Shown here piece by piece: positions 1-46,942 of a stretch of 49,833 nt of DNA. The position numbers were made by a program, and so were the translations under genes. The notes beneath the pieces are model-generated. The model did no database searches, was not told the DNA's origin, and saw only the letters and a list, made by a program, of their open reading frames with translations. Every line of letters starts with the position of its first letter. The first letter of the stretch is position 1. The stretch is from a virus: the IMG/VR virus record IMGVR_UViG_3300008050_000063, positions 1 through 49,833 of that record. One strand, written 5' to 3'.

Positions 1-786
1 GGATGTCCTGCGTCTGAGCAAGGTTTACCTATTCTTAAAATTTTGTCGTTAATTTGCAATCAATCAATCTCAGAAATTAAATTAGAATATCTTAAATCTT
101 TCGGCAAAACAACAAAGAAGATAAGACCTAAAGAAAAAATAAAAGAATTACCAAAACAGAAAGTTGAACTTTTAGATTCATGGATTCCTATTGATGACAA
201 AATCCAGAAATATATTGACTTTCGACAAGTTTTAGATGCTCCACATGCCCCAAAAAATTGGACATTTTATTACGATAAAAGAAAAAAACGATTAGTTATT
301 CCTTGGTCATTTAAGGGAAAATTAAAATCATATCAATTGAGAGCTATATATAAAAATCAGGATCCAAAATATTTATTCCCGTTTAATGTAGACAAACCTG
401 TGTTTGGTATTGAAAATATTGATGAAAGTTTTCCATATATATTTGGGTTGGAAGGCGCATTTGACTCTGTATGGGTTAAAAACGGTGTAGCAGTAGGTGG
501 TTTAACTCCTACAGAAAATCAATTAAATATTATAAATTCTAAGTTATGTGAATATGTGTATATGTTTGATAACCAATGGACAGACAAAACGTCAATGGAA
601 AAATCCTGTAGACTTGCTAAAAAAGATGTGAATGCAAAAATTTTTATTTGGCCTAGAGATATTCAAGAAAAAGATGTGAATGAATATGTGATCAAACATA
701 AACAAAATCCTTTCAATGAAAAAAACTTCCTAAAAAAACACATTTATAGTGGTGTTAAAGCACTTCTGCTTCTTAAATCCATATAA
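1..786 (+). CDS. DNA primase, C-terminal part (gp61-like), truncated by window start
   Basis: The reading frame is open from base 1, so the gene begins upstream; a TTG at 43 is not a credible start. Seen: a TOPRIM-like core with GLEGAFDSVWVKNGVAVGG (conserved Glu, then hydrophobic strand and Gly), followed by MFDNQWTDKTS (Asp-rich metal-binding strand) and a KDVNEYV segment typical of phage/DnaG primases. Known: TOPRIM primases make RNA primers for lagging-strand synthesis, and T4 gp61 works with the gp41 helicase. The N-terminal zinc-binding domain must lie outside the window. It is followed after 31 bases by the histone-like gene, with a late promoter overlapping its own 3' end. Family call fairly sure; the gp61 equivalence is inferred. 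Confidence 0.75.
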   Translation, partial: GCPASEQGLPILKILSLICNQSISEIKLEYLKSFGKTTKKIRPKEKIKELPKQKVELLDSWIPIDDKIQKYIDFRQVLDAPHAPKNWTFYYDKRKKRLVIPWSFKGKLKSYQLRAIYKNQDPKYLFPFNVDKPVFGIENIDESFPYIFGLEGAFDSVWVKNGVAVGGLTPTENQLNIINSKLCEYVYMFDNQWTDKTSMEKSCRLAKKDVNAKIFIWPRDIQEKDVNEYVIKHKQNPFNEKNFLKKHIYSGVKALLLLKSI

Positions 787-816
787 ATATTTCTAACAAC
801 AAAAAGGAAATTTAAG
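772..816 (+). promoter_or_regulatory. Hairpin with late promoter in loop and SD in 3' arm (weaker example)
   Basis: Arm 772-780 (CTTAAATCC) pairs with 806-816 (GGAAATTTAAG): 7 bp, a 2-nt bulge, then 2 bp. The SD (AAGGAA, about 804-809) is in the right arm and TATAAATA in the loop. Transcripts started at the loop promoter (about 795) would lack the left arm and leave the SD free. The same layout is far stronger at 1928-1989. Confidence 0.4.
782..789 (+). promoter_or_regulatory. Late promoter TATAAATA upstream of the histone-like gene
   Basis: Exact match to the T4 late -10 box, overlapping the stop codon of the primase gene. Start codon 818 is 29 bases downstream. The box lies in the loop of an imperfect hairpin (772-780 with 806-816). 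Confidence 0.65.
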
Positions 817-817
817 T

Positions 818-1009
818 ATGGGTAATGAAAATTTAAGCCAAGTATTGTATGAAAAAATGACTGAGTTATGGGTAGATTTTGTAATCAATCATGAAAAAGC
901 TGCTGGTGGAAATAAAGCTGCTGGTGGAAGAGCACGTAAAGCAATCGGTGATATCAAAAAAATGGTAACCGAGTATCGTAAAGAAAGTATTACTGAAGGT
1001 AAGAAATAA
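818..1009 (+). CDS. Histone H1-like (Hc1-type) small basic protein
   Basis: 63 aa, start ATG with SD AAAAAGGA. Residues about 30-60 carry GNKAAGGRARKAIGDIKK and EYRKESI, closely resembling the core of chlamydial Hc1 and Bacteroidota histone H1-like proteins (GNKAA.RVRK...L..... RKES). Known: these lysine-rich helical proteins bind and condense DNA. Inferred: the phage version coats or compacts DNA, or remodels the host nucleoid; the late promoter just upstream favours a role during DNA packaging or in the virion. Much shorter than Hc1 because the repetitive C-terminal tail is absent. The family resemblance is clear by eye but was not scored. Confidence 0.6.
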   Translation: MGNENLSQVLYEKMTELWVDFVINHEKAAGGNKAAGGRARKAIGDIKKMVTEYRKESITEGKK

Positions 1010-1021
1010 GGTTAAAAAAAT

Positions 1022-1222
1022 ATGAATGCAAGAGAATATAAAGAATTAGATTGCCAAGCATTCGTCGACCAACACGGTACAAAATTTGTAAAGGGCCCCT
1101 TCGATGTCGAAGGGGTTGTTTACGATTACAAATTGATTGACAAGAATGGCGAAGATTATTGCACTGCCAAACAAATAGAAGATTGGTACTGTGATGTTGT
1201 TAAAAAGGAATTTAACAAATGA
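1022..1222 (+). CDS. Hypothetical acidic protein, 66 aa
   Basis: Start ATG 12 bases after the previous stop, SD AAGG. The predicted fold is mixed alpha/beta, with a hairpin-encoding stretch (GPFDVEGVVYDYKLID). No family recognised. The coding DNA holds a 9-bp perfect inverted repeat at 1096-1115, unusually GC-rich for this genome. Its stop overlaps the next start (ATGA), so the two are translationally coupled. Likely co-transcribed with the histone-like gene from the 782-789 promoter. Confidence 0.6.
   Translation: MNAREYKELDCQAFVDQHGTKFVKGPFDVEGVVYDYKLIDKNGEDYCTAKQIEDWYCDVVKKEFNK
1096..1115 (+). repeat. GC-rich perfect hairpin inside the 66-aa gene
   Basis: CCCCTTCGA (1096-1104) and TCGAAGGGG (1107-1115) pair perfectly; with the inner bases open this is an 8-bp stem with an ATGT loop. 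It is followed by TTGTTT, a poor U-tract. It could attenuate transcription, or simply reflect codon choice for PFDVEG. Confidence 0.5.
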
Positions 1223-1401
1223 AAAAAATAATTTATATAGCAGAAACAAAAGAATTTTTGGTGGATGGTCAAGTAGTTAAAACAGAAACATTGTCAGAAT
1301 GTGAATTACAAAAACTTATGCAACAAGCGGAAAAACAATCAATGCTTCTTGGTACGAACACTACCGCTTCCAATCCAGTAGACGAACAGCTTTTAGTATA
1401 A
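1219..1401 (+). CDS. Hypothetical protein, 60 aa
   Basis: Overlaps the preceding stop by ATGA, which suggests translational coupling. Short beta strands at the N-terminus (KKIIYIAETKEFLVDGQVV), then a Glu/Gln-rich helix and a Thr/Asn/Pro-rich tail. No family recognised. Its 3' end overlaps the late promoter at 1397-1404. Confidence 0.55.
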   Translation: MKKIIYIAETKEFLVDGQVVKTETLSECELQKLMQQAEKQSMLLGTNTTASNPVDEQLLV

Positions 1402-1404
1402 ATA
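1397..1404 (+). promoter_or_regulatory. Late promoter TATAAATA upstream of zinc-ribbon gene
   Basis: Exact T4-type late -10 box across the stop codon of the 60-aa gene, 27 bases before the start at 1431. A weak 6-bp hairpin (CTTTTA 1390-1395 with TAAAAG 1415-1420) brackets it and partly covers the SD (AAAAGGA). Confidence 0.65.
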
Positions 1405-1430
1405 ATATAAAGTTTAAAAGGAATTATTCA

Positions 1431-1718
1431 ATGAACAAATTTAAAAATTTATGTGAAGTTATACTGTCGAAAGGTGTTTTAAATGCTTATATGAGAGGTG
1501 GAAAATTAAAAGGGACTTGCCCTAAATGCGGTACAATGGTGCCTAAATATCCTGGCAGATATGGTAAATGTCCATATTGTTACACTCGTTTCTTAAATAA
1601 TCCTGACCCAGTTAAAAATCAGGAAGGTGGAGAAATTGCTGTAGTTCCTGATGATGCGGTTGATGCAACTGATGAAGATCCTGAAGAAACAATGAAAAAA
1701 CGTACATCAGGTGAATAA
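1431..1718 (+). CDS. Zinc-ribbon protein, 95 aa
   Basis: Four cysteines in two CxxC knuckles, C30-P-K-C33 and C47-P-Y-C50, form a classical zinc ribbon; the C-terminal third is strongly acidic. SD AAAAGGA. The N-terminus (KFKNLCEV) resembles that of the 85-aa protein at 15609 (KFNKLCEE) and contains an L-x-E tripeptide, the T4 prohead-protease consensus. Inference: a late, possibly virion-associated protein. The next gene starts directly after its stop and is also Cys-rich. Confidence 0.65.
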   Translation: MNKFKNLCEVILSKGVLNAYMRGGKLKGTCPKCGTMVPKYPGRYGKCPYCYTRFLNNPDPVKNQEGGEIAVVPDDAVDATDEDPEETMKKRTSGE

Positions 1719-1916
1719 ATGAATAAGAAGTGCTGCAAAAATTGCTCTCATTTTCAAGAAAGAACATCTTTCTGTCGTTTAACACCTCCTTCCCCTGTAG
1801 TTGTATACGAAGAAGAAGATAAAAACACCGTCTCAAAAATTAAAAGTATGTGGGCAGTAATTCATAAACCTGAGTTAGATTACTGTAGTCAATTTGACAA
1901 TATTAATTTAATTTAG
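1719..1916 (+). CDS. Small Cys-rich putative zinc-binding protein, 65 aa
   Basis: Begins immediately after the preceding stop (TAA-ATG). CCKNCSHF and SFC at residues 5-19 plus a distal DYC resemble the small CxxC..C proteins common in phages, though no named family is certain. Probably binds zinc; function unknown. Co-transcribed with the zinc-ribbon gene. The 3' side leads into a 17-bp inverted repeat. Confidence 0.6.
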   Translation: MNKKCCKNCSHFQERTSFCRLTPPSPVVVYEEEDKNTVSKIKSMWAVIHKPELDYCSQFDNINLI

Positions 1917-1927
1917 AAACCTGGTTT

Positions 1928-1989
1928 AAAAATCCTCTTTTGTTTAGTATATTTTGATTATAAATGTATTTTAACAAAAGAGGATTTTT
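1928..1989 (+). promoter_or_regulatory. RNA on/off switch: 17-bp hairpin enclosing a late promoter and trapping the SD
   Basis: AAAAATCCTCTTTTGTT (1928-1944) and AACAAAAGAGGATTTTT (1973-1989) are perfect complements over 17 bp around a 28-nt loop. The only SD for the gene at 1995 (AGAGGA, 1979-1984) is inside the right arm. A late-type box TATAAATG (1959-1966) is in the loop, so its transcript should start near 1972, at the foot of the right arm, and cannot form the hairpin. Read-through transcripts can. This is the known design of T4 genes e, soc, 49 and I-TevI. The stem plus TTTTT might also terminate upstream transcription. Confidence 0.75.
1959..1966 (+). promoter_or_regulatory. Late-type promoter TATAAATG in hairpin loop
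   Basis: One base from TATAAATA; its position exactly before the right hairpin arm supports a real promoter. Drives the 207-aa gene at 1995. Confidence 0.5.
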
Positions 1990-1994
1990 GCATT

Positions 1995-2618
1995 ATGGCT
2001 AAAAAAATTAGTTTGATAGGTTTTGTAAAAGCAAAACACAAAAGCGTTAAATTTAATGCTAACAAAGAACAACTACGCCCTGAAGATTTCATCAAATTTT
2101 ATTATGGTGTATCTGCTGACAAACCCATTATTGGAAAAGTAACGAAAGTTTTATCAAAAGGTGTTGAAGTTTACACAGACTATGGATGGATGAATGTTCT
2201 TTGGGAAAGAATTGATAGAGTTTTTAAAGTTAAAACTTCCGGTAAATTAAAAGAAACTAAATTGTTAAGTGTTGACGGTTCTTCACCATTACCACTTATT
2301 GATGCTGCAATAGATAGAATTATTGTTCAAGTCAAAAATGAAAATATTCCAATCAAACTCAAAGATAAAAGACTCAATAAAACAACATCTTATAGCAGAC
2401 ATCTAGAGCTAAAAGGTAAATCAGGTGTGATAACTATTGAGGTACAGACAAAAGATGACTCAGAGGCACTTATAAAAGGTCTGAAGCGGAAAGCTGTTAT
2501 TAAACTAAACAACAAAGGTAAAATATCTTCTTCAATTATCAAAAAGGTTGTTGAAGGTGCAAAAAAATTAATAAAACCTGCAAAAAAAGGCTCACCGTTA
2601 AATATAACTAGTCTTTAA
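1995..2618 (+). CDS. Hypothetical basic protein, 207 aa
   Basis: No family recognised. Residues about 28-75 look like a small beta barrel (PIIGKVTKVLSKGVEVYTDYGW), which is a plausible SH3/KOW-like nucleic-acid-binding fold. The rest is Lys-rich, ending in a basic helix (KKVVEGAKKLIKPAKKG). This suggests contact with nucleic acid, by inference only. Expression appears controlled by the hairpin switch just upstream, so the product is probably wanted only late in infection. Confidence 0.6.
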   Translation: MAKKISLIGFVKAKHKSVKFNANKEQLRPEDFIKFYYGVSADKPIIGKVTKVLSKGVEVYTDYGWMNVLWERIDRVFKVKTSGKLKETKLLSVDGSSPLPLIDAAIDRIIVQVKNENIPIKLKDKRLNKTTSYSRHLELKGKSGVITIEVQTKDDSEALIKGLKRKAVIKLNNKGKISSSIIKKVVEGAKKLIKPAKKGSPLNITSL

Positions 2619-2651
2619 TAGTATAATAAATCAAAAAGGAGAAAAAAAAAA

Positions 2652-3212
2652 ATGCCGAATGATAATATCGAAACAATTTTAAAAGTAGGCCAGATTATTA
2701 AATTAGGTAATCTGTATGGGAAAGTAATAAAAAACACAACAAATACAAATACAAAATCAAAGTTGAAGCGCTTTGGATTTCACTGTAGTAAGGGAATGCT
2801 GGTAGTAAGCTATTTTGCCCAGGAGCAAATACCCCCTACTGGTGAAACATATTATAGTAAGTACTCAGGATGGGACTTTCTTGATGACAATCGTAAGTTT
2901 TATGACAATAAATCTACTTTTGAGAAGATTACAAAAATATGGGATTGTCATCCCTGTTGTTTTGGTGTTGTGGATTTTGGGTATATCCCATCACTTGAAG
3001 AACTTGAATTAGGGGAAACAGATACAAGAGAATATTTTGAATTTGTATGGGAAAAAGAAAACACTGTTAAAGTAACAATCGATGATGAAAAATTTGAAGT
3101 TAATGATGAAAAAGCAGAAGAGATTTTAGAAATTTTGTACGCGGACCAGGAAAGTTATGGATTTACTCCTAATGTTTCTGCTGATACATATGATACAACA
3201 GGTTGGTGGTAA
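2652..3212 (+). CDS. Hypothetical acidic protein, 186 aa
   Basis: Start ATG after a purine-rich SD (AAAAAGGAGAAA). Beta-rich N-terminus (KVGQIIKLGNLYGKVIKN), a central CHPCCFG cysteine cluster (about residues 98-104), and an acidic C-terminus ending in TTGWW. No family recognised. It sits 3 bases before the exonuclease gene and is likely cotranscribed with it. Confidence 0.65.
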   Translation: MPNDNIETILKVGQIIKLGNLYGKVIKNTTNTNTKSKLKRFGFHCSKGMLVVSYFAQEQIPPTGETYYSKYSGWDFLDDNRKFYDNKSTFEKITKIWDCHPCCFGVVDFGYIPSLEELELGETDTREYFEFVWEKENTVKVTIDDEKFEVNDEKAEEILEILYADQESYGFTPNVSADTYDTTGWW

Positions 3213-3215
3213 AAA

Positions 3216-4088
3216 ATGATATTAGTAGATACTTCATATCTTGTTTATTTTCATGGATTTGGTGTTTGGGAGTGGTATAAAAGAGAATTTGGTACCAAGC
3301 ATATTCCTGATGATGGGTCTTTTGACCCAATGTCAGATCCTGAATTTAAAGCAATGTACAAAAAAAGATTTCTAACAAAAATTTACAACGCTGTGCAAAA
3401 CGACGTTGTATTTTTTGATAGAGGCGAGTTGGTTTTCTGTCTTGATTGTTCAAAAAAGAAAATCTGGAGAAATGATATTTTTCCTGAATATAAAATCAAA
3501 AGAAAAGCAGGCAAGAAAAGAAAATTTTCTTGGAATAATATTTTCAATTACACAATAAACAATATTATACCAGAATATCAAGAAAAATATGGGTGCAGAG
3601 TATTCTCAAATCCTGTAGCAGAAGGTGATGATATTATTGCTGTTTTAGCAAACCATGTTTATGATCACAATATTTGTAAAGATACTATCATCATTACATC
3701 TGATGGAGATATTACACAACTTTCTGATAAAGCAACTATAATAACTCTCAAAGGTGAAAAGAAAACTTACCAATCAGTAATGGATAAAAAGAAATTCAAA
3801 GAACAAATTGAATGGACACCAGAACTTTTTCTTATACACAAATCAATAATGGGTGATTCTTCTGATGAAATTCCTCCAATAATTCCTGGAGTGGGGCCTA
3901 AGAGGGCACTAAAGTATATAAATAATATTGAACTGTTGGAAAAGTTATTTGTTGAAAACACAGATGCTAAAACTAAATTTGCTATGAACACTCAGCTCAT
4001 AGATTTCAAATTTATACCGACAGAAATAAGTGAAGATGTTTTGTCGCAATTTAATGCGACAGTAGAAGATAAATTAACAAATCTTTGA
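3216..4088 (+). CDS. rnh: FEN-family 5'-3' exonuclease / RNase H (T4 Rnh-like)
   Basis: 290 aa versus 305 in T4 Rnh. Acidic metal ligands fall in the FEN pattern: MILVDTS (D5), FCLDCS, AEGDDIIAVL, ITSDGDITQL, and MGDSSDEIPPIIPGVGPKRA, the last being the helix-hairpin-helix-like C-terminal DNA-binding motif. Known: removes RNA primers and adjoining DNA from lagging-strand fragments. Its place near primase and a RuvC-like resolvase fits a replication/repair group. A TATAAATA string at 3917-3924 lies in the coding sequence and is probably chance. The symbol is by homology. Confidence 0.88.
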   Translation: MILVDTSYLVYFHGFGVWEWYKREFGTKHIPDDGSFDPMSDPEFKAMYKKRFLTKIYNAVQNDVVFFDRGELVFCLDCSKKKIWRNDIFPEYKIKRKAGKKRKFSWNNIFNYTINNIIPEYQEKYGCRVFSNPVAEGDDIIAVLANHVYDHNICKDTIIITSDGDITQLSDKATIITLKGEKKTYQSVMDKKKFKEQIEWTPELFLIHKSIMGDSSDEIPPIIPGVGPKRALKYINNIELLEKLFVENTDAKTKFAMNTQLIDFKFIPTEISEDVLSQFNATVEDKLTNL

Positions 4089-4099
4089 GGTACTTATAA

Positions 4100-4201
4100 A
4101 TGTTATTTTTGATCTGTATTGCTATAGGATGTTCTCTAGGATTTTTCAGTTTTAATATAATGTTATTGATTATGTTTTTATTTATCTTATTTCACGAGTA
4201 A
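4100..4201 (+). CDS. Small hydrophobic membrane peptide, 33 aa
   Basis: ATG at 4100 with SD TGAGG (4086-4090) that overlaps the stop codon of the exonuclease gene; stop TAA at 4199. The peptide is almost entirely hydrophobic (LFLICIAIGCSLGFF, then NIMLLIMFLFILF) and ends in HE, enough for one or two membrane passes. No family can be named; a small membrane peptide of this kind could be holin-like or bind a host membrane protein. It fills a gap that would otherwise be empty, and the next gene starts 11 bases later. Confidence 0.5.
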   Translation: MLFLICIAIGCSLGFFSFNIMLLIMFLFILFHE

Positions 4202-4212
4202 CAAAGGAATAT

Positions 4213-4713
4213 ATGGCACATAAATTTTACATCGGATTAGATAATGGGGTAAGTGGAGCGATAGGAATTGTCTCTGACGAACCTGGATTTTTACCAGCGT
4301 TATTCCAAACACCCACATTTTCACAACAAAATTATACAAAGAAAAAAGGTAATATCACAAGAATTAATATTCAAGAGTTAGAATCTCTTCTTGAACCATA
4401 CAAAGAGGATAGCTTTATATTGATTGAGCGTCCTCTTGTTAATCCGGGTAGATTTAAAGCAACTATATCAGCTGTTCGAGCACTTGAAGCAACTCTGATT
4501 GTTATTGAGAAATTAGGCATTCCATTTGAATACGCAGACAGTAAAAAATGGCAAACTGCTTTATTAGGCACAGGATTTAAAGGAAAAGAATTAAAAGTCG
4601 CTTCCGCAAATATAAGTAATCGTTTATTCCCTCATCTTAAAGATGTTATTACCAAACAGAAAGATGGGGATGCAATTTTAATGGCAGAATATGCTAGGAG
4701 ACAAAACTTTTGA
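4213..4713 (+). CDS. RuvC-like Holliday-junction resolvase
   Basis: 166 aa with RNase H-fold catalytic acids in the RuvC order: FYIGLDNGVSG (D10), FILIERP (E72), and KDGDAILMAEYA (D151, D153). The Lys-rich segment before the last helix and the length match RuvC/poxvirus A22-like resolvases. Known: cuts four-way junctions. In T4 this job is done by the unrelated endonuclease VII (gp49), so here it may resolve recombination intermediates before packaging. SD AAAGGAAT at 4202. Overlaps the next gene's TTG start. Confidence 0.85.
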   Translation: MAHKFYIGLDNGVSGAIGIVSDEPGFLPALFQTPTFSQQNYTKKKGNITRINIQELESLLEPYKEDSFILIERPLVNPGRFKATISAVRALEATLIVIEKLGIPFEYADSKKWQTALLGTGFKGKELKVASANISNRLFPHLKDVITKQKDGDAILMAEYARRQNF

Positions 4714-5273
4714 AGAATATAGTACTGATTAATTATATTGATTTAGTTGGACAAGCATTATTGAATTTTTTAAATGGGAGTGATGTCCCTGAAAATGCTA
4801 AAGGAAAGTATTTCATAAATTTAAGTTCAAGTAATAAAAAACAACTTCAGTTCTATATGAACTCAATGTTGAAAAACAATTTATTTTTTGGGAAAAAAAC
4901 AATTATCATACATACATGTGATGTAGAAAATAATTGGAGAAATTCCTTAGGTGATTCCTGGAAATCTGTCAAATATAAAATAACAGATGACTCTGTATGG
5001 CTTGAACCTTCTGCAATGAATTGTTTTTTTGATAAAGAATTTAAGAGGATTGAAAAAGAGTTTAAGAAATGTTCATTCATTTCAACCCACGAAATAGATA
5101 GTTTTGATTTAAAATTTTATCTCAAACGTATTCTAGGTGTTGATTGTTTTAATGAAAAAGGGTACAATATAATTGAAGATGGAAATATTGTCTATGAAAG
5201 AAATAATTATTTCCCAGATTTTATATTGAATGATATAGAAGCAAAGTTACGTCACAACAACATAATAATATAG
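4710..5273 (+). CDS. Hypothetical protein, 187 aa, TTG start
   Basis: TTG at 4710 overlaps the resolvase stop (TTGA) and is preceded at the right distance by TAGGAGA (about 4694-4700), so the non-AUG start is well supported. Residues 1-110 look alpha/beta: IVLINYIDLVGQALLNFL, a phosphate-loop-free Rossmann-like start. KTIIIHTCDVENNWRNSLG and an acidic linker follow. No recognised domain. Genetically coupled to the resolvase, suggesting a linked role. Confidence 0.6.
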   Translation: MKNIVLINYIDLVGQALLNFLNGSDVPENAKGKYFINLSSSNKKQLQFYMNSMLKNNLFFGKKTIIIHTCDVENNWRNSLGDSWKSVKYKITDDSVWLEPSAMNCFFDKEFKRIEKEFKKCSFISTHEIDSFDLKFYLKRILGVDCFNEKGYNIIEDGNIVYERNNYFPDFILNDIEAKLRHNNIII

Positions 5274-5285
5274 GAGATTGAAAAA

Positions 5286-5759
5286 ATGTTTTTCAACAAC
5301 ACACTAATCGAAGTTAGTCACAGAGAAAAAGGATTCATGACAGCAAGTGCTGCAGAAATCGGAAAGGAGATGCACAATTTTCAAGCATTGTCTGTTTATC
5401 CGAAGATTGAACAAACCGGAAAGTATAGAGTAATTGTACCAAAGTTCAGTTATGTACCTTTTAGATCAGTTGACGTATTTTACGATTCGCAACAAGTAAT
5501 TGAATTAAGATATAGAGACAATTACTACGAAAAAGATGTCACACTTTTAGTCGATCCATACAACAAAGTCTACACTACAAATAAAGGATATATTTCAGCA
5601 GGTAATTTAGGTGCTACTGATGTTCTTTTAAGCAGTGAAGGTAGAGTCGCCAAAATCATATCAAAGGAAAGATTAAATGTTTATGGAGATTTTTCTAAAA
5701 TGGAGTTGAAATATGGGAATAATATCATGGCTAACGGGATTGTTGTCATACCGAAATAA
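5286..5759 (+). CDS. Hypothetical beta-rich protein, 157 aa
   Basis: ATG with SD ATAGGAGA. The chain is dominated by short beta strands (KYRVIVPKFSYVPF, VIELRYRDNYYEKDVTLLV) ending in GIVVIPK; no transmembrane segment or known motif. The sandwich-like pattern would suit a small virion or baseplate part, but this is inference. Tightly linked to the following gene (10 bases). Confidence 0.6.
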   Translation: MFFNNTLIEVSHREKGFMTASAAEIGKEMHNFQALSVYPKIEQTGKYRVIVPKFSYVPFRSVDVFYDSQQVIELRYRDNYYEKDVTLLVDPYNKVYTTNKGYISAGNLGATDVLLSSEGRVAKIISKERLNVYGDFSKMELKYGNNIMANGIVVIPK

Positions 5760-5769
5760 GGAAAAAAAA

Positions 5770-6285
5770 ATGGATTTTACAATATTATACGACGATAAAG
5801 GACCATCATTTACTTCTGGTTCCAATATACAAGAAATTTTCACAAGATTAGAATCTGCAGGAGAAGATTATGTTGAAGTAGTTCCTGGACATAAAAAAAT
5901 ACCATCGAACGCAGTTAAAAAATTTAATAGTGACCCTATGGCTGTGTTGTTGTCTCAAATACCAGACGACAAACCTGCACAAGCACCTATTACAATTCCA
6001 CATAAATCAGATAATGGTGCGCCTGCTGCAATAAAAGGTACAAACCCTTTCCCTGATAAAAAATGGGTACCGCCAGTCCAAGAAGAAAAAATTAAGACAA
6101 AATATTTTGAAGAAGATGGTATAAGTTTTAAATTGGTGGGAGATGTTCTATATAAGAAGAAATGGGTTGAAAATAAAGACGCAAGACTTATTAATAGAAA
6201 ATCTGGTAAGAGTTATTCTGGTGATAATTATATTGTCCAAACACAAAATTGGAAAGTTGTTTCAGGGGTTCCTGAAACAACTTAG
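5770..6285 (+). CDS. Hypothetical protein, 171 aa
   Basis: I chose ATG 5770 (MDFTILYDD) because it has the SD AAGGAAA and avoids overlap with the upstream gene; the frame is open to an ATG at 5713. The N-terminal half is a possible DNA/protein-binding segment (FTRLESAGEDYVEVVPGHKK). A Pro/Ala-rich linker follows, then a C-terminal basic module with GKSYSGDNYIVQTQNWKVV. No family recognised. Its last codons form a 12-bp hairpin, 6255-6282, that closes the transcription unit. Confidence 0.6.
   Translation: MDFTILYDDKGPSFTSGSNIQEIFTRLESAGEDYVEVVPGHKKIPSNAVKKFNSDPMAVLLSQIPDDKPAQAPITIPHKSDNGAPAAIKGTNPFPDKKWVPPVQEEKIKTKYFEEDGISFKLVGDVLYKKKWVENKDARLINRKSGKSYSGDNYIVQTQNWKVVSGVPETT
6255..6282 (+). 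terminator. 12-bp hairpin at the end of the left gene block
   Basis: AGTTGTTTCAGG (6255-6266) pairs perfectly with CCTGAAACAACT (6271-6282) around a GGTT loop, immediately before the TAG stop. No U-tract follows, so it is either a weak terminator or an mRNA 3'-end stabiliser. It separates the left block from the late fibre block. Confidence 0.5.
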
Positions 6286-6316
6286 TAAAAACTGCATAGT
6301 TAGTCTATTCTATTCC

Positions 6317-6324
6317 TATAAATA
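6317..6324 (+). promoter_or_regulatory. Late promoter TATAAATA for the fibre block
   Basis: Exact late box 20 bases before the ATG at 6344, with SD AAAGGA between. No other late box was seen on the + strand until 15866, so it may drive the whole adhesin block. Confidence 0.75.
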
Positions 6325-6343
6325 TTAAAAAAAGGATATTAAA

Positions 6344-9337
6344 ATGGGAATAGAAATAGACAATATTGTGCATATAACAGATGACCAGATAGCATCTGGT
6401 TATATCCTGCACACAACCCAAACTGAAAAAGACCTTTGGAATAAAAACGCTGTAAGTGGTGATAATTTAAAGATAAATTACAATCCAACTGAAGGTTATA
6501 CTCCTGCTTCAACTACAGTTTCTGGGCATTTATCTGGCATTAAAGACGCTTTAAACGATTTACAAATTGAACCTAACCCACCTGGGGATAGTTTAAGTAT
6601 AGCATATTCTCCAACAGAATATGATGAAACAGATTCAACAGTTTCTGGTAACTTAGATGGTATATCAAAAGAATTAGGCGAAATTAAAACAATTCAATCA
6701 ACTTCTCTAGACGGCCGCTCAGTCATTTATAATCCAGATGGATATACAACTACAGGTCAAACTCTTTCTGCAAATCTAGACGGCATAGGGAATGAATTGA
6801 AGGGCAATGCAACAGATATAGCAACACTTGCTGGATTATCTGCAGATATTGTCTGGGAACACGGTGTTGGAGCAGCATCAGGAACAATACAACCGAAAAT
6901 ATCTACAAATAAACTTTTACTACCATATCTACACGGAAATGTTAATTCAATACCAGTAACAAACAGTTCTGGGGAAATAATAGATTCTTGTTCTACACTT
7001 ATCCCTGGACCTTCAGGAAATGGTAGTGTTATTAATATAAACCATTTTGAAACTAATCCAGCAATAGCAGAATTATTACCTGGTGACATATGGCTTCAAA
7101 GTATCGGAACATCTGGATATGTTTGGAGATACTATAATGGAGTGAGTACACAAAATGTGCCTATCGCTGCTGGAGGTGGTGGAGGTGCTGTTAGTTGGGG
7201 AGATATACTAGGAACATTAGCAAACCAAACTGATCTACAAAACGAATTCGCGAATATAAAACAAGTACCTAGCGGTGGAACAATAAATCAAGTATTGTCT
7301 AAAGCATCAAGTAGTGATTTTGATACTGAATGGAGCGACGTTGCTGCAGCAACTGGATCAAGTTACTGGAGCAGAACATCTGGTGGAATAATTAGTCCTT
7401 CAGTTAGTGGAGATAAATTAGATGTACATGAAATAGAAACCTCTAAAATATTTTCCGAAAATGAACAATCTGCATATATTGAATTTGATGATGAAGTTAT
7501 TAGTATTTATTCTGATTGGAAAAATATGGTTCATATCGATGGAGAAAATGAAGAAGTTGTTTGGAATCCTCATGCGGATTCGGTTGCCCAGGATATTATA
7601 ATTAAAGCTCCTAGTGGTGCTGGTATGAAAGATACATATAGATTTGATTACAGTGCACTTGCTCATATATACAACGATAAGATATTTGCGAATAGTGGAC
7701 TTGTACTAAATACACAAACACTTACTGGGGTTACAATAGGTTCATCCAATAACGATAAAATACCAACACAAGGATATGTTGATGATGCAGTTGGTTTATT
7801 ATCTGGTGCGGAATGGTTTAATGGTGATATGATTGAGCTGGATTTTGTACCAGGTGTTGGATATACTCAAACAAATGAAAAATTATCTGGACACTTAGAC
7901 GGAATTGATAAAAGTTTAAATTCTCTATCAGCTGCTGTTGATAATATAACAGGTGGAACAGGAGGAGGTGGAGCATATATACCACTTACCGGATCAAGTG
8001 ATATTATCGGAAGTCTAATTCCTAAAAATACAGGATTAACTTTAGGAACATCTGGTAATCCATGGCAAGAAGGATATTTCACAAGTGGTAGTTTATTTTT
8101 AGATATTAACAAATTATCTACACAGAACAACAGACTTTATTTTAATGATGAAACTGTTATAGTTAGTGGTGATATTGCAGATTTAGAAAGTGTTTACTCA
8201 AATGTAAACAGTAATAGTGGAAAATGGGACGGAACATATACAACAGTTAGAGCTAATAGTGCTACTTGGGAATTTGGTTCAAAACAATCTTTACATAACG
8301 TATTTGTAGATTACAGTGTTACTCCTGGTGGAGGAGGATCAATTGATGATCCTATTGATACTGTAGCAAATGCATTAGTGTGGATAAATTCTCCAACTGG
8401 TGGTAATGACCCTACAAATTCACAAGCTTGGAAAATTATAACAGCGGCTGGTATAAGTTATGCTAATATTACATTACCTAACAATATAACTCTTGCAGGT
8501 GTTGGTATTACTTCTAAAATTGGTGGTACAATAACGACTGGAAATGATTGCTGTTTAGAATATATTAATTTTACAAAAAATCATCCAGGAACTGGTGGAT
8601 GTGTTAATGTCCAAGGTGCAAGATGTATTATTAGAGAATGTTTTTTCTCTGGTAATTATAACGGCAATTTGCATTATTGTATCTATACTAACAATATTTG
8701 TACTGTTTCTGATACTGCATTCAGACTTAATATTGAAAGTGCAGCTGCTGATGTTTATTGTATAGCACAGGATGGAACACAAACTTCAAGAATGAGGGAT
8801 ATAGGAATACTTGAAAATGATACATATCCAAATAAAATTAAAATAGCTAGGGTAATCTACAATGGTCATATATCAATCAGCGGAATTGGTTCTACAATAG
8901 CCGATAAGTGGTGTAATCTGATTAATGAAGGTACTAATGGTGGGTCAATAACTTTTCAAGATATTGTTAAAATTCCTACAGGTGGAACAGTAGGACAAGT
9001 AGTAACTAAAGCTTCAAGTGGAGAATATGATGTTGGATGGAGTGATCCTGGTGCTCAAACATTTATAGATTGTGCAGATACTCCTTCTGGATATGTTGGG
9101 AAAGGGAATGAACTTGTCAAAGTTAATGCAGCAGAAGACGCAATAGAATTCTCAGGAGTTACAATAGAAGATGCTCCTGCTGGTGGTTCGATGTTAGGTT
9201 TAGATATATACACAACAGAACCTACAGCTCCTACAGGAGAAGATAGTTTATATGCATATCACAAATCAGCAACTGTTGTAGAATTAATCATAACCAACGG
9301 TTCTGATATTTATACTGTGGAGTTAACAAAAAGATAA
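6344..9337 (+). CDS. Long tail-fibre/adhesin protein, 997 aa
   Basis: Contains four copies of a fibre repeat of the form Y.P..GYT......SGHL.GI...L, at about residues 45-77, 84-115, 122-153 and 495-530, separated by Gly/Ser-rich linkers. Residues about 650-860 form a beta-helix-like section (ITLPNNITLAGVGITSK, CCLEYINFTKNHPG), then another linker and a short C-terminal head. Known: such repeats occur in trimeric phage fibres. Inferred role: receptor recognition. First gene after a late promoter; the next ATG follows directly on its stop. Confidence 0.75.
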   Translation: MGIEIDNIVHITDDQIASGYILHTTQTEKDLWNKNAVSGDNLKINYNPTEGYTPASTTVSGHLSGIKDALNDLQIEPNPPGDSLSIAYSPTEYDETDSTVSGNLDGISKELGEIKTIQSTSLDGRSVIYNPDGYTTTGQTLSANLDGIGNELKGNATDIATLAGLSADIVWEHGVGAASGTIQPKISTNKLLLPYLHGNVNSIPVTNSSGEIIDSCSTLIPGPSGNGSVININHFETNPAIAELLPGDIWLQSIGTSGYVWRYYNGVSTQNVPIAAGGGGGAVSWGDILGTLANQTDLQNEFANIKQVPSGGTINQVLSKASSSDFDTEWSDVAAATGSSYWSRTSGGIISPSVSGDKLDVHEIETSKIFSENEQSAYIEFDDEVISIYSDWKNMVHIDGENEEVVWNPHADSVAQDIIIKAPSGAGMKDTYRFDYSALAHIYNDKIFANSGLVLNTQTLTGVTIGSSNNDKIPTQGYVDDAVGLLSGAEWFNGDMIELDFVPGVGYTQTNEKLSGHLDGIDKSLNSLSAAVDNITGGTGGGGAYIPLTGSSDIIGSLIPKNTGLTLGTSGNPWQEGYFTSGSLFLDINKLSTQNNRLYFNDETVIVSGDIADLESVYSNVNSNSGKWDGTYTTVRANSATWEFGSKQSLHNVFVDYSVTPGGGGSIDDPIDTVANALVWINSPTGGNDPTNSQAWKIITAAGISYANITLPNNITLAGVGITSKIGGTITTGNDCCLEYINFTKNHPGTGGCVNVQGARCIIRECFFSGNYNGNLHYCIYTNNICTVSDTAFRLNIESAAADVYCIAQDGTQTSRMRDIGILENDTYPNKIKIARVIYNGHISISGIGSTIADKWCNLINEGTNGGSITFQDIVKIPTGGTVGQVVTKASSGEYDVGWSDPGAQTFIDCADTPSGYVGKGNELVKVNAAEDAIEFSGVTIEDAPAGGSMLGLDIYTTEPTAPTGEDSLYAYHKSATVVELIITNGSDIYTVELTKR

Positions 9338-29641: not shown

Positions 29642-29657
29642 TATAAATATATTTATA
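29642..29657. promoter_or_regulatory. Back-to-back bidirectional late promoters
   Basis: TATAAATATATTTATA is a perfect 16-bp palindrome made of a + strand TATAAATA (29642-29649) and a - strand TATAAATA (29650-29657). The + box drives the HNH gene; the - box would restore expression of the 631-aa gene that the insertion cut off from its operon. An 8-bp AT stem (29635-29642 with 29660-29667) touches the HNH SD. Confidence 0.7.
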
Positions 29658-29677: not shown

Positions 29678-30403
29678 ATGAACTATCAAAAAAATTATAA
29701 CTTACTCATCGAAAAATATAAAAATCTAAATATTCAAAAAAGTAAAGAAATTAATCTTGAAAAACATCACATACTCCCAAAATCCATGGGTGGTACAAAC
29801 AATAAAGAAAATTTAGTTAATTTAACGGTAAAGGCACATTTTGTCGCTCACCATTTACTTTGGAAAATACATAGAAATAAAGAAATGGCATTTGCTTTTT
29901 GGCGAATGGTTAATAATAAAAATATTAATTTATCGATGTATGTAGAGGCAAAAAATAATTTTATAAAATTTAATAAAGGAGAAACAGCACCTAATTATGG
30001 TAAAAAACACACAGAAAAAACTAAGAACCAGATTAGTGTAACAATGAAAAAGAAAAATTTAACAGGAAAAAATAATTATTTTTATGGTAAAAAACACACA
30101 GAAAAAACTAAGAAAATGTATTCATTACAAAGAAAAGGAAAAACAAGACCCCAAAGTTTTATTGATAAAATGAAAACTAAAATGAAGGGGGAAAATAATC
30201 CAATGTTTGGTAAAAAAATATCAGAAGAACATAAAGAAAAAATTAGAGAAGCAAATCGTAAAAGAAAAGGTTTGCCTTCTCCTAACAAAGGCAAACCTCA
30301 AGATAAATCACAATGTCCGTTTTGTATGAAAATAGGCGGTAAGAGTAATATGAAACGTTATCATTTTAATAACTGCAGATCTAACCCACGTAAAAACCAA
30401 TAG
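29678..30403 (+). CDS. HNH homing endonuclease with NUMOD3-type repeats and zinc finger, 241 aa
   Basis: HNH core KHHILPKSMGGTNNKENLVN plus KAHFVAHHL (H30, H31, N45, H58, H59). Three DNA-binding repeats follow, of NUMOD3 type: NYGKKHTEKTKNQIS, FYGKKHTEKTKKMYS and MFGKKISEEHKEKIREA. A C-terminal CPFCMKIGG...RYHFNNC zinc finger ends the protein. Known: free-standing HNH enzymes spread by cutting alleles that lack them. Its 3' end overlaps the end of the neck-like gene by 23 bases, and its direction opposes all flanking genes. Paralogue of the protein at 38750. Confidence 0.9.
   Translation: MNYQKNYNLLIEKYKNLNIQKSKEINLEKHHILPKSMGGTNNKENLVNLTVKAHFVAHHLLWKIHRNKEMAFAFWRMVNNKNINLSMYVEAKNNFIKFNKGETAPNYGKKHTEKTKNQISVTMKKKNLTGKNNYFYGKKHTEKTKKMYSLQRKGKTRPQSFIDKMKTKMKGENNPMFGKKISEEHKEKIREANRKRKGLPSPNKGKPQDKSQCPFCMKIGGKSNMKRYHFNNCRSNPRKNQ
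29996..30112 (+). repeat. 30-bp exact repeat inside the HNH gene
   Basis: TATGGTAAAAAACACACAGA and the following ten bases occur at 29996-30025 and 30083-30112, 87 bp (29 codons) apart. They encode NUMOD3 units 1 and 2. Confidence 0.8.
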
Positions 30404-31160: not shown

Positions 31161-31172
31161 TATTTATAAATA
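31161..31172. promoter_or_regulatory. Overlapping divergent late promoters (terminase / neck-like gene)
   Basis: TATTTATAAATA is a palindrome that contains TATAAATA on the + strand (31165-31172, 26 bases before the terminase ATG) and on the - strand (31168-31161, 24 bases before 31136). The two boxes share four bases, so only one direction can be used at a time on a given molecule. Confidence 0.75.
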
Positions 31173-33366: not shown

Positions 33367-34647
33367 TTATGATAATGATTTAATATTTAATATAGGTTTA
33401 ACTGTGTGTAAAATATCCACAGTTGGTCCTATTGCATTTTTAATAACTTCATAATCTTTATAAGCATTTGGTGCTTCGTCTAATGTTGATCTACAAACTG
33501 AAGAAGAATAAATTCCACTCATTTGTTCCTTAAACTCATCTAATGATAAATTTCGTTTTGCAGCACCTCTTGCTAATACTCTACCAGCACCGTGAGGAGC
33601 AGAACAATTCCAATCTTTGTTAGATTTTCCTTCACCTATAATTAACCCGTCTCTCATATTCCAAGGAATAATAACTTTCTGGTCTTTGTAAGCAGAAATA
33701 GCACCTTTACGAATAATATCATCTTCAAAATCAAGATAGTTGTGTATTGATTCAATTGTTTCTACACCTTCATTTACATTTAGTATTTCAAGTACAGTAT
33801 CTATTATAGCCAACCTATTAGCAGATGCATAATATTGAGCAACGATCATATCCTCTAAATAATCTATCAAATAATCATCTCTTAAATAATAATTATCTTG
33901 GTTACGAGAATCATTTCTACCATAAATGTTTTTCAATTCTTTGAAATTGTGTTCCCAAGTAGATTTATCACATTTTTGTTTGATATCTGATATTGCTTTT
34001 TGGTACTCTTCTAAAATTACTTTCTTTACAACATTCTTTGCAATATTAGTGTGATATTCACAAACCTGCTTCCCTAAATTTCTAGAACCAGTGTGAACAG
34101 TTAACCAATGATTTCCTTCTTCATCTTTCCCAATTTCAATAAAATGATTCCCTCCACCTAATGTTCCAACGGAGTTTTTAATTCTTCCGATATTACAATC
34201 GAATTTCTCAATCATTTTATCAAACTTATCTTCTGTAAAATCGCCTTTATAACCAACAGCATCTCTCAATTTTTTAGTCAGCACTTTAAAATTCATCTGA
34301 TATTTAAAATGTTTATCATCTTTATTTGTAGATGTTCCCATTGGTACATCACGTCTAATTTTGTCATTAATAGTTTTCAAATTAGATAAATCAGTATCCT
34401 TAGGTAATTTTACCGACATCATCCCACATCCTATATCAACACCGATTATCTCTGGTGAGATTTTATCACTAGATTTCATAGTGAATCCAATACATGAACC
34501 TTTCCCTGCATGACAGTCAGGCATAATTTTGATAGGATTTGTAAATGCTATATTGTTCACAAATTGAATAATCTGTTTATAGCAATTTTCTTCAATATCA
34601 TCTATCATTACATCTGCATTTGTGTATTTACCTTTAATTGTAATCAT
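33367..34647 (-). CDS. rtcB: RtcB-type RNA ligase
   Basis: 426 aa with all RtcB landmarks: PDCHAGKG (44-50), GVDIGCGM with metal-binding C74, LGGGNHFIEIG (164-172), VHTGSRNLG (H185), HN at 302, and APHGAGRVLARG with the guanylated His at 352. Known: joins 2',3'-cyclic phosphate or 3'-phosphate RNA to 5'-OH ends using GTP and Mn2+. Inferred: mends tRNAs cut by host defence nucleases early in infection, since it is expressed from an early promoter. An 8-bp palindrome lies across its ribosome-binding region. Confidence 0.93.
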   Translation of the reverse strand: MITIKGKYTNADVMIDDIEENCYKQIIQFVNNIAFTNPIKIMPDCHAGKGSCIGFTMKSSDKISPEIIGVDIGCGMMSVKLPKDTDLSNLKTINDKIRRDVPMGTSTNKDDKHFKYQMNFKVLTKKLRDAVGYKGDFTEDKFDKMIEKFDCNIGRIKNSVGTLGGGNHFIEIGKDEEGNHWLTVHTGSRNLGKQVCEYHTNIAKNVVKKVILEEYQKAISDIKQKCDKSTWEHNFKELKNIYGRNDSRNQDNYYLRDDYLIDYLEDMIVAQYYASANRLAIIDTVLEILNVNEGVETIESIHNYLDFEDDIIRKGAISAYKDQKVIIPWNMRDGLIIGEGKSNKDWNCSAPHGAGRVLARGAAKRNLSLDEFKEQMSGIYSSSVCRSTLDEAPNAYKDYEVIKNAIGPTVDILHTVKPILNIKSLS

Positions 34648-36906: not shown

Positions 36907-37827
36907 TTAGTGATTGTATTTATTGCTTCGTTTAAAACGATCAATGTAATGATTCATCATATCAGATGTATTACTATTTTTAGTTTTATCGTCAGCGGCA
37001 CCCTCAGTTAAGATTTTCTTAGGGTTAACATTAGAAGTTGCTTGATCTTTTAATTCTTCTCTTAAAAGAGTCTCATCTTCTTCGAAAGCTGCAATAGCTT
37101 CTTCAAACGTATCCTCAATTTCTTCTACGTCTGCATCTTTGAAACGAGTTTCAATATATGCACGCATTTTAGGATTTATGTTTTTACATTTATCTTCAAG
37201 CAAATTACTTGCTTCATTTCTTTTCAATTTTTTACTTAATTCAATTTTCTCAATCATCAAAGTATTAATCTCAGAATCTTTATCTTCAATAATTGTTTTA
37301 GCATCTTGAACAGCTTCTTTAATTTCTTCATCCATAGAGATTTCAGAGATTACAGCAATCTGTTTAATTTCGTTGAACATTTCTTCTAATTTTTCTAAAC
37401 GAACTGTATCTACGATTTTTCCTTCTGGAAGTTTATCTTCAATATAAACATCTAAGAAATCTGAAACTTTTCCTTCAAGTTCTTCCTGCATTCCATTTTC
37501 ATATTTTTCAACAACCTTTTTTAAACCAACAGTATGATCTTCATCAATTTTAGATAAAACACCTTCTAATAATTCAGTATGATCTTCATCAATTTTAGAT
37601 AAAACTTTGTTTAATGATTCAGTATGGTCTTCGTCAATTTTAGATACAACTTTATCTAAAAGAGCAATGTGTTTTTCGTCAACACTTTCTAAAGCTTCTT
37701 CAAATATTTTTTCTTTGTATTCTTTTATTTTTGTTTCAAAAAGAATGTTAAGCTCATCTTTTCTTTCTTCACTTATAACATCTTTTGATGATAAATCGTC
37801 TAAAAGCTTTTTAAATAAATCTTTCAT
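36907..37827 (-). CDS. 22: Prohead scaffold core protein (gp22-like) with 15-residue repeats
   Basis: 306 aa, highly charged, nearly all helical, between capsid and protease genes as in T4. Residues about 47-95 contain SKIDEDHTE-type units repeated three times plus degenerate copies on either side. Possible gp21 cut sites: V-I-S-E near residue 20 and I-L-T-E-G near 276. Ends HYIDRFKRSNKYNH. Known: gp22 forms the inner core that is degraded by gp21 on maturation. Assignment relies on position and composition. Confidence 0.85.
   Translation of the reverse strand: MKDLFKKLLDDLSSKDVISEERKDELNILFETKIKEYKEKIFEEALESVDEKHIALLDKVVSKIDEDHTESLNKVLSKIDEDHTELLEGVLSKIDEDHTVGLKKVVEKYENGMQEELEGKVSDFLDVYIEDKLPEGKIVDTVRLEKLEEMFNEIKQIAVISEISMDEEIKEAVQDAKTIIEDKDSEINTLMIEKIELSKKLKRNEASNLLEDKCKNINPKMRAYIETRFKDADVEEIEDTFEEAIAAFEEDETLLREELKDQATSNVNPKKILTEGAADDKTKNSNTSDMMNHYIDRFKRSNKYNH
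37531..37650 (-). repeat. 45-bp tandem repeat in the scaffold gene
   Basis: Units begin near 37531, 37576 and 37621 (each starts AGTATG on the + strand) and repeat ATCTTCATCAATTTTAGAT with few changes. The 15-codon period keeps frame and heptad-like helix spacing, so copy number could vary without frameshift. Confidence 0.8.
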
Positions 37828-38737: not shown

Positions 38738-38755
38738 ATTTATATTTATTTATAA
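38738..38755 (-). promoter_or_regulatory. Tandem late promoters for the protease gene
   Basis: Two TATTTATA boxes (+ strand) at 38738-38745 and 38748-38755, ten bases apart, about one helical turn, so they lie on the same DNA face. Confidence 0.65.
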
Positions 38756-39499
38756 GTTTATAAGTGTCTTACAATTTTTAAAATGCCATCTATGCATATT
38801 ACTTATCCCACCTATTTTATCACAATGTGGGCATTTAACTATATTCTGTTTTTTTCCTGATTTAGATTGACTTATTTTTGCTTTTGTTTTTTCAGAAACA
38901 AATTTATTTTTAGAAGATTGACTTATTTTTGCTTTTGTTTTTTCAGAATGTTTTCGATTTTTGAATTTTGTGCTCATTTCTTTACTTCTTTCTTTTAAAA
39001 TTTGTGTGTCAATATTTGGATTTAATCTACATTTAGCACCATGCCATCGTGCATACATGTGAGGATGTATTTTTTTATCACAGAAAATACATTTTTTGTG
39101 TTTTCTATTTTTGGCAGCTATTTTCATGTTATCAACACATTTTTTAGTTTTTCTGATTCCTTTAAATTGATTTGATAATCTTATACTAAATTCTTTTTTA
39201 ATTTTTTCATACATAGAAGAAGTTACTTTGTACTTTCTTTTATTGTTATTACTTGTTTTAGTTACGAACATCCAAAACGAATATATTATTTTATTATTGT
39301 TTGGATAAATTTTACAAAGTAAATGATGAGCAACAAAATGAGCTTTTGCTGTTAAATTAACTAAATTTTCTTTATTGTTTGTGCCTCCTATAGATTTAGG
39401 TAAGATGTGATGTGATTCAAGATATATATCTTGGCCTTTTTTAAAATTTAAAATTTTGTGTTTTTTAATAATCAAATCGTAGAGTTTCTGATAGTTCAT
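38750..39499 (-). CDS. HNH homing endonuclease paralogue, 249 aa
   Basis: HNH core SHHILPKSIGGTNNKENLVN plus KAHFVAHHL, almost the same as the enzyme at 29678. Two zinc-finger-like clusters (CIFCDKKIHPHMYARWHGAKC and CPHCDKIGGISNMHRWHF...C) flank NUMOD3-like units HSEKTKAKISQSSK and VSEKTKAKISQSKSG. It sits between portal and protease, where T4 has genes 67/68. Its mRNA start is under a promoter-in-hairpin switch (39509-39571). The pair shows one endonuclease family has entered the head region twice. Confidence 0.9.
   Translation of the reverse strand: MNYQKLYDLIIKKHKILNFKKGQDIYLESHHILPKSIGGTNNKENLVNLTAKAHFVAHHLLCKIYPNNNKIIYSFWMFVTKTSNNNKRKYKVTSSMYEKIKKEFSIRLSNQFKGIRKTKKCVDNMKIAAKNRKHKKCIFCDKKIHPHMYARWHGAKCRLNPNIDTQILKERSKEMSTKFKNRKHSEKTKAKISQSSKNKFVSEKTKAKISQSKSGKKQNIVKCPHCDKIGGISNMHRWHFKNCKTLINL
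38864..38947 (-). repeat. 33-bp direct repeat in the HNH paralogue
   Basis: AGATTGACTTATTTTTGCTT and the bases following occur at 38864-38896 and 38915-38947, 51 bp (17 codons) apart. They encode the tandem SEKTKAKISQS units. Confidence 0.8.
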
Positions 39500-39508
39500 A
39501 TATTCTTT

Positions 39509-39571
39509 CCTTTAATGTGTGGTTGAATATATTTATAAGAAAAAGAGAACAACCCTGCACCACACTAAAGG
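39509..39571 (-). promoter_or_regulatory. RNA switch: late promoter inside hairpin masking the HNH SD
   Basis: On the - strand CCTTTAGTGTGGT (39571-39559) pairs with ACCACACATTAAAGG (39523-39509): 7 + 6 bp with a 2-nt bulge. The SD (AAAGGAAA) falls in the second arm and TATAAATA (39537-39530) in the loop, with the predicted start at about 39523, the foot of the second arm. Upstream transcripts fold and hide the SD; loop-promoter transcripts cannot. Same logic as 1928-1989 and as T4 I-TevI. Confidence 0.7.
39530..39537 (-). promoter_or_regulatory. Late promoter for the HNH paralogue
   Basis: Exact late box in the hairpin loop described for 39509-39571; 31 bases before ATG 39499. Confidence 0.7.
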
Positions 39572-39592
39572 AAAAATCCACGGGTTGTTCTC
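39540..39592 (-). terminator. Terminator after the portal gene
   Basis: - strand: GAGAACAACCC (39592-39582) pairs perfectly with GGGTTGTTCTC (39555-39545), followed by five U residues. The 26-nt loop contains the first arm of the HNH switch. The two hairpins interleave, so in a read-through RNA both together would make a pseudoknot or compete. Confidence 0.75.
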
Positions 39593-46797: not shown

Positions 46798-46907
46798 CCC
46801 ATCTCTCTGCCGCTAGACAAGATAAAAATAAAGTCCTTGGTCAATATTGTATAAAGATTTAAACGGTCTCAGTATAGGTTACAGAAGGACTAGTAACGGA
46901 AATAAAC
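46798..46907. other. Intergenic stretch with 7-bp closing stem
   Basis: 110 bases between convergent operons. AGTCCTT (46832-46838) pairs with AAGGACT (46885-46891), enclosing 46 nt. It looks like a structured RNA or relic, but is too short and lacks T- and D-arms for a tRNA. Confidence 0.35.
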
Positions 46908-46942
46908 AAAGGGAATGATACATAAATATCATTCCCTTTTTT
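46908..46942. terminator. Bidirectional intrinsic terminator
   Basis: AAAGGGAATGATA (46908-46920) pairs perfectly with TATCATTCCCTTT (46927-46939) around CATAAA. A run of six T closes the + side and TTTGTTT the - side. Separates the late + operon from the early - operon that ends with gp44. Confidence 0.9.

Follow-up and report, generated by a model that had tools for sequence, protein, structure and literature searches.

A probable translational lock of the T4 kind ahead of an orphan gene in an uncultured virus

Translational locks have been described for the T4 genes e, soc, 49, and I-TevI, and among endonuclease genes for I-TevI, I-TevII, I-TevIII, segB, and Aeh1 mobE (PMC3014915, PMC2988022). 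In T4 e, the Shine–Dalgarno (SD) sequence is hidden in the read-through RNA, and the late start lies between the left arm and the SD (PMC3014915). In T4 I-TevIII and I-TevII, the late box is located in or at the loop, the SD is in the right arm, and the late transcript drops the left arm (PMC2988022). The same logic is found in T4 49, soc, I-TevI, and segB, which are late genes carried on long multi-gene transcripts (PMC2988022, PMC3014915).

The hairpin considered here lies at positions 1928–1989 of the window, which is the entire 49,833-base IMG/VR virus record IMGVR_UViG_3300008050_000063, ahead of a gene for a 207-aa protein. The features discussed below are listed in Table 1. The initial annotation likened this arrangement to those of T4 e, soc, 49, and I-TevI. 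The likeness holds for the anatomy of the locks (PMC3014915, PMC2988022) and extends to the sequestration and release of the SD as predicted by folding.

Table 1. Positions of the hairpin at 1928–1989, the second lock, and related features in the window
Feature	Positions	Strand	Basis or remark
Consensus late box TATAAATA, before ORF 818–1009	782–789	+	Possible source of late read-through
Consensus late box TATAAATA, before ORF 1431–1718	1397–1404	+	Possible source of late read-through
Lock hairpin, left arm	1928–1944	+	17 nt, 100% complementary to 1973–1989
Inner 9-bp A-U/G-U helix in the 28-nt loop	1946–1970 (1946–1954 with 1962–1970)	+	Minimum-free-energy fold
Late-promoter-like box TATAAATG, in the hairpin loop	1959–1966	+	−36 from the start codon; 7/8 consensus
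Lock hairpin, right arm, SD inside	1973–1989	+	17 nt, 100% complementary to 1928–1944
SD AGAGGA	1979–1984	+	Sequence; 10 nt before ATG 1995
207-aa gene under the lock, no recognised family	1995–2618	+	ORF; coding score; no match above cut-off
HNH homing endonuclease gene behind the second lock	38750–39499	−	phrog_655, E 9e-45
Second, imperfect lock	39506–39574	−	Arms 39574–39561 / 39519–39506, 13/14 paired
Terminator-like hairpin GAGAACAACCC/GGGTTGTTCTC followed by TTTTT	39540–39592 (39592–39582 with 39555–39545)	−	Sequence, fold

With the same folding parameters, the stem of the hairpin at 1928–1989 is computed at −24.9 kcal/mol, compared with −19.0 for segB, −16.3 for 49, −15.5 for I-TevII, −14.9 for both e and I-TevIII, −11.6 for I-TevI, and −8.6 kcal/mol for soc, and it is predicted to be the strongest among the locks folded here. 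The stems of 49, soc, I-TevI, and segB (−8.6 to −19.0 kcal/mol) are also shorter. In anatomy, the closest T4 lock would be that of I-TevIII, which has its box in the loop and whose right-arm SD reads AAGAGGA, compared with AGAGGA here. The hairpin at 1928–1989 differs from those of I-TevIII and I-TevII in its perfect, much stronger stem, in a box whose last base is G, and in the gene that follows, which falls in no recognised homing-endonuclease family. The difference from T4 e lies in the boxes, since those of e are TATAAATA with one of them overlapping the left arm, whereas the whole box lies in the loop at 1928–1989. In addition, structural studies and a cited 100-fold effect support the switch at e (PMC3014915), whereas at 1928–1989 it is predicted from sequence and folding.

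The source virus is, as judged from its sequence, an uncultured, distant T4-type myovirus. The window encodes T4-type genes for the portal, prohead protease, major head protein, terminase, and clamp loader, along with a primase, an RNase H-like exonuclease, and a Holliday junction resolvase. The best matches of the portal protein among phage records are approximately 30–33% identical and mostly from cyanophages; its identity is below 35% to each of the 25 phage matches listed. The sigma factor gp55 was not identified among the genes of the 49,833-base window. An RtcB-type RNA ligase gene (33367–34647) is flanked by the terminase and major head protein genes, and the scaffold gene region (37530–37653) gives two 79-bp matches offset by 45 nt, suggesting a 45-nt tandem repeat.

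T4-type late promoters are evidently used by the source phage, since 17 of the 25 TATAAATA boxes in the window sit 26–44 nt ahead of a start codon, these starts belonging to 16 of the 61 genes considered. At 29642–29657 and 31161–31172, divergent gene pairs share near-palindromic TATAAATA boxes that overlap or adjoin each other on opposite strands, forming back-to-back late promoters. Near-identical leaders containing CCGTTTGACA are found upstream of 35272 (−), 48839 (−), and 49085 (+); they are sigma-70-like and possibly early promoters, with TATATT following CCGTTTGACA in the leaders of 35272 (−) and 48839 (−).

The perfect 17-bp hairpin reported in the initial annotation is borne out, as is the placement of the gene's only SD inside the right arm. 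The arms are fully complementary and enclose a loop of 28 nt, and the hairpin is the sole perfect inverted repeat of at least 14 bp with a 3–60-nt loop in the window. Stems of at least 15 bp appeared in two of 200 order-2 Markov windows of equal length, and a 17-bp stem in none. Simulating only the upstream stretch, while keeping the box, the start codon, and all bases between them constant, gave 17 bp in 0 of 100,000 cases, the maximum being 15 bp (once). The stem is by far the longest at the 17 late-box genes of the window, the other 16 having stems of 4–9 bp. For the 121-nt leader, the computed folding energy is −35.5 kcal/mol (z = −6.4), and none of 200 shuffles is as good. We also asked whether the right arm might be mobile or repeated, and rejected this idea. 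Its 17-mer is found in 64 viral stretches, but these matches are attributed to chance because none of them has the whole left arm upstream; the longest perfect stem is 9 bp, in 2 of the 64.

Such a structure could serve purposes other than hiding an SD. The 17 perfect and 9 inner pairs together make a long double-stranded RNA, and an RNase III-type enzyme might cleave the read-through RNA there, parting the arms and thereby freeing or destroying the SD. This is very unlikely, as specific evidence for it is lacking and the late box in the loop is left unexplained. The dyad might instead act as DNA, namely as a protein-binding operator with half sites approximately 45 bp apart. A perfect dyad does surround the promoter-like box, and T4 I-TevI binds an operator that overlaps the late promoter of its own gene (PMC2988022). 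However, the 207-aa product has no recognised DNA-binding domain in the sequence-database searches, and the pairing with exactly the SD is unexplained, which makes an operator the most improbable of the alternatives.

The accessibility of the SD was compared between a read-through model RNA including 150 nt upstream and a late model RNA whose 5′ end lies 13 nt downstream of the box's first base. From the 61 genes, five with non-ATG starts (4710, 15876, 34837, 45903, and 49085) were set aside, and 4 of the remaining 56 lack an SD by the rule used, leaving 52 to be scored. In the read-through model, the GAGG core of the SD of the 207-aa gene has a mean unpaired probability of 0.00, the lowest among the 52 genes (the next is 0.13), whereas the value is 0.88 in the modelled late transcript. 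Thus, as in T4 e-type locks, the SD is predicted to be sequestered in a helix of the read-through RNA and to be open in the late transcript.

The position of the box in the loop should be noted. The T4 late box is numbered −13 to −6 by convention (PMC1524935), which puts the predicted +1 of the TATAAATG box at 1972, the foot of the right arm, so that a transcript from there would be without the left arm. Its distance from the start codon falls within the range of −26 to −44 seen for the 17 TATAAATA boxes. The initial annotation described a late-type box so placed, and the placement stands. The box itself fares less well as a late promoter, because it is off-consensus at the last base (position −6), having G where functional boxes have A, and is rare as a promoter. 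The initial annotation does not mention this deviation. When boxes 24–46 nt before an ATG-ORF were counted in four genomes (the window, T4, and two marine Kyanoviridae records), TATAAATG was so placed in 3 of 45 cases, the box at 1959 included, versus 49 of 76 for TATAAATA. By genome, the numbers for TATAAATG are 1/7 in the window (the 1959 box), 2/23 in T4, and 0/10 and 0/5 in the Kyanoviridae records, and those for TATAAATA are 16/25, 18/32, 11/13, and 4/6, respectively. With SD, ATG, and ORF all required downstream, the counts in T4 are 0/23 for TATAAATG versus 20/32 for TATAAATA. The use of TATAAATG as a late promoter with a start near 1972 is plausible and is the weakest link in reading the hairpin as a lock.

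The SD lock could therefore be real while TATAAATG is not a late promoter, activation depending on another start, such as a middle or host-type promoter in the loop, or on opening of the stem. The scarcity of TATAAATG near ATG-ORFs (only 2/38 across T4 and the two Kyanoviridae records) points in this direction, as does a weak sigma-70-like pair (TTTAAA, 17 nt, TATATT) ending at 1953. However, sigma-70-like sites number 37 in 1–6500 against 31.7 expected by chance, and TATAAATG agrees with the consensus at seven of eight bases, is correctly positioned, and is followed by A/T-rich DNA. T4 also tolerates some single deviations: of its 50 listed late sites, 32 are perfect, 9 have A at −13, and most others show single deviations (PMC2988020). 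We therefore regard activation by such other means as improbable.

The hairpin at 1928–1989 is probably a cis-acting translational lock of the T4 e and I-TevI kind with its own late start at approximately 1972. In mRNA reading through from upstream, the 17-bp stem would pair the sole SD and block binding of the 30S subunit. A transcript starting at approximately 1972, about 6 nt past the box, would be free of the left arm and would be translated from a short, open leader. The stem, its improbability, the predicted occlusion and release of the SD, and the T4-type late promoters in the genome support this reading. We infer that read-through RNA exists, that the stem lowers its translation, and that TATAAATG acts as a late promoter.

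The genes upstream of the lock are co-directional with it, and the consensus late boxes at 782 and 1397 are on the same strand. A terminator scan found no plus-strand terminator-like site between these boxes and the hairpin, suggesting that the lock would insulate the gene from all read-through, early and late, and make it dependent on its own start site. The initial annotation had early read-through alone in view, and its proposal that the product would be harmful or useless early does not follow, since late read-through from these boxes would be locked as well. Furthermore, removal of the I-TevI hairpin left T4 viability unharmed, with thymidine added (PMC3014915).

Several points argue against a lock: TATAAATG ends in G, the hairpin sits where a terminator would, the right arm ends in TTTTT, and no relative of the gene was found that could show covariation of the arms. 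The strongest rival is that the main role of the hairpin is intrinsic termination of the operon ending at 1916 (stem 1933–1944/1973–1984, U-tract 1985–1989), the occlusion of the SD being incidental or a second function. The hairpin begins only 12 nt past the upstream stop codon, and its left arm opens with AAAAA while the right arm runs into TTTTT, as in two-way terminators. The part 1933–1984 folds at −20.2 kcal/mol, compared with −16.6 kcal/mol for the convergent-gene hairpin at 46905–46942, and at the second lock described below a terminator-like hairpin does adjoin the lock. On the other hand, the loop is 28 nt long, shrinking to 7 nt only when the weak inner A-U helix is present, the 12-bp stem has only four G-C pairs, and the U-run is just five long, is itself paired in the 17-bp stem, and is followed by GCA. 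The hairpin is absent from the list of the terminator scan, though the loop limit of 8 and the tail rule of the scan exclude it anyway. Termination would also not require that an arm overlap the SD of the gene that follows. A mainly terminating role is unlikely on this balance, though still the strongest of the alternatives, and the roles of terminator and lock are compatible.

There is a small chance that both roles are combined in a single stem, which would end upstream transcription and hide the SD when transcription leaks through, the sole escape being the weak, non-consensus start in the loop. If so, no neighbouring message, early or late, would yield the 207-aa product, which would come only from a late promoter kept deliberately weak, and the logic of terminator plus lock would be used twice in this phage, the second time interleaved at the HNH endonuclease gene.

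The 207-aa frame reads as coding, with a score of 0.27 versus −0.07 to −0.88 in the five other frames, and no in-frame ATG, GTG, or TTG is found upstream of ATG 1995. As stated in the initial annotation, the gene has no known family: searches of Pfam, PHROGs, and NCBIfam gave nothing above the cut-off or better than E 0.07, and PDB sequences gave no match better than E 0.39. A search of 50,697 phage records with E values up to 10 yielded no relatives, and none were found in IMG/VR viral contigs or genome contigs with single-protein patterns, which reach close relatives only. A single-sequence AlphaFold model has a mean pLDDT of 42, too poor for a fold search.

A second, imperfect lock is seen in the same window ahead of an HNH endonuclease gene, both sitting behind the portal gene. 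Its right arm would hide the SD (AAAGGA) at 39513–39508, and a consensus TATAAATA box is in the loop at 39537–39530. A perfect core of 9 bp, as in this stem, was obtained by chance in 34 of 3,000 cases. The lock resembles those of Aeh1 mobE and T4 segB in preceding a free-standing endonuclease gene, and a locked endonuclease is expected, since the T4 reviews describe locks for I-TevI, I-TevII, I-TevIII, segB, and Aeh1 mobE. It differs in being interleaved with a terminator-like hairpin, whose loop contains the left arm of the lock; such an arrangement is not mentioned in the available portions of PMC2988022 and PMC3014915.

That the second lock competes with this terminator-like fold counts against reading the hairpin at 1928–1989 as a lock. 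The SD is unpaired with a probability of 0.62 with the full leader and 0.03 without the left arm of the terminator-like fold, in nested folding models, which cannot display both stems simultaneously. The two stems (39506–39592) could form a pseudoknot or compete with each other. A paralogue of the endonuclease at 29678 is 45% identical and has no comparable stem (7 bp, a length reached by chance in 678 of 3,000 cases). Its upstream neighbour is on the opposite strand, and the paralogue is therefore less exposed to co-directional read-through. Thirteen relatives of the endonuclease were found. One of them is on a near-identical contig, the nearest record, with 4 mismatches in 11,939 bases. This contig covers 35,325–47,263 and has an identical second-lock leader, but ends short of the hairpin at 1928–1989. 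None of the other 12 has a comparable lock, and a late-like box is found only in two of them (L210 and L214), so that these relatives lend the second lock no support through covariation. The presence of a second lock in the same phage raises the odds that the lock before 1995 is real.

In a survey of viral contigs, complementary arms around TATAAATA were found in 84 stretches, compared with 54 for a reversed-arm control. The analysis used the 80 listed test loci, which hold 84 matches (four unlisted stretches were dropped), and the complete set of 54 control loci. Matches with a start codon and ORF numbered 49 of 84 at the listed test loci versus 19 of 54 among the controls. We do not take this excess as evidence for locks, because it is confounded by divergent SDs and by terminators supplying TCCTTTT. 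A closer pattern, built on AAAGAGGA arms, matched 14 stretches in viral contigs, with no evident relative among them.

Other hairpins were observed along the way. In two unrelated viral contigs, at approximately 3857–3913 of L226 and 1025–1067 of L229, stems of 18–19 bp (G-U allowed) hide an SD before an ATG; with a TATAAT-like motif in the loop, they may be locks working in the same way from host-type promoters. In the window itself, a GC-rich hairpin (CCCCTTCGA/TCGAAGGGG) at 1088–1123 is followed by TTGTTT and appears terminator-like, yet it lies inside the small ORF 1022–1222.

The hairpin at 1928–1989 is most likely a further case, here on an orphan gene, of the kind of switch known from T4. 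With it, locks of the T4 e and I-TevI style would extend to an uncultured virus only distantly related to T4, and to a gene without a recognised family. A second and less expected arrangement would be the terminator interleaved with the lock at the endonuclease gene. The lock also flags the 207-aa gene as one whose expression the phage may isolate from that of its neighbours.
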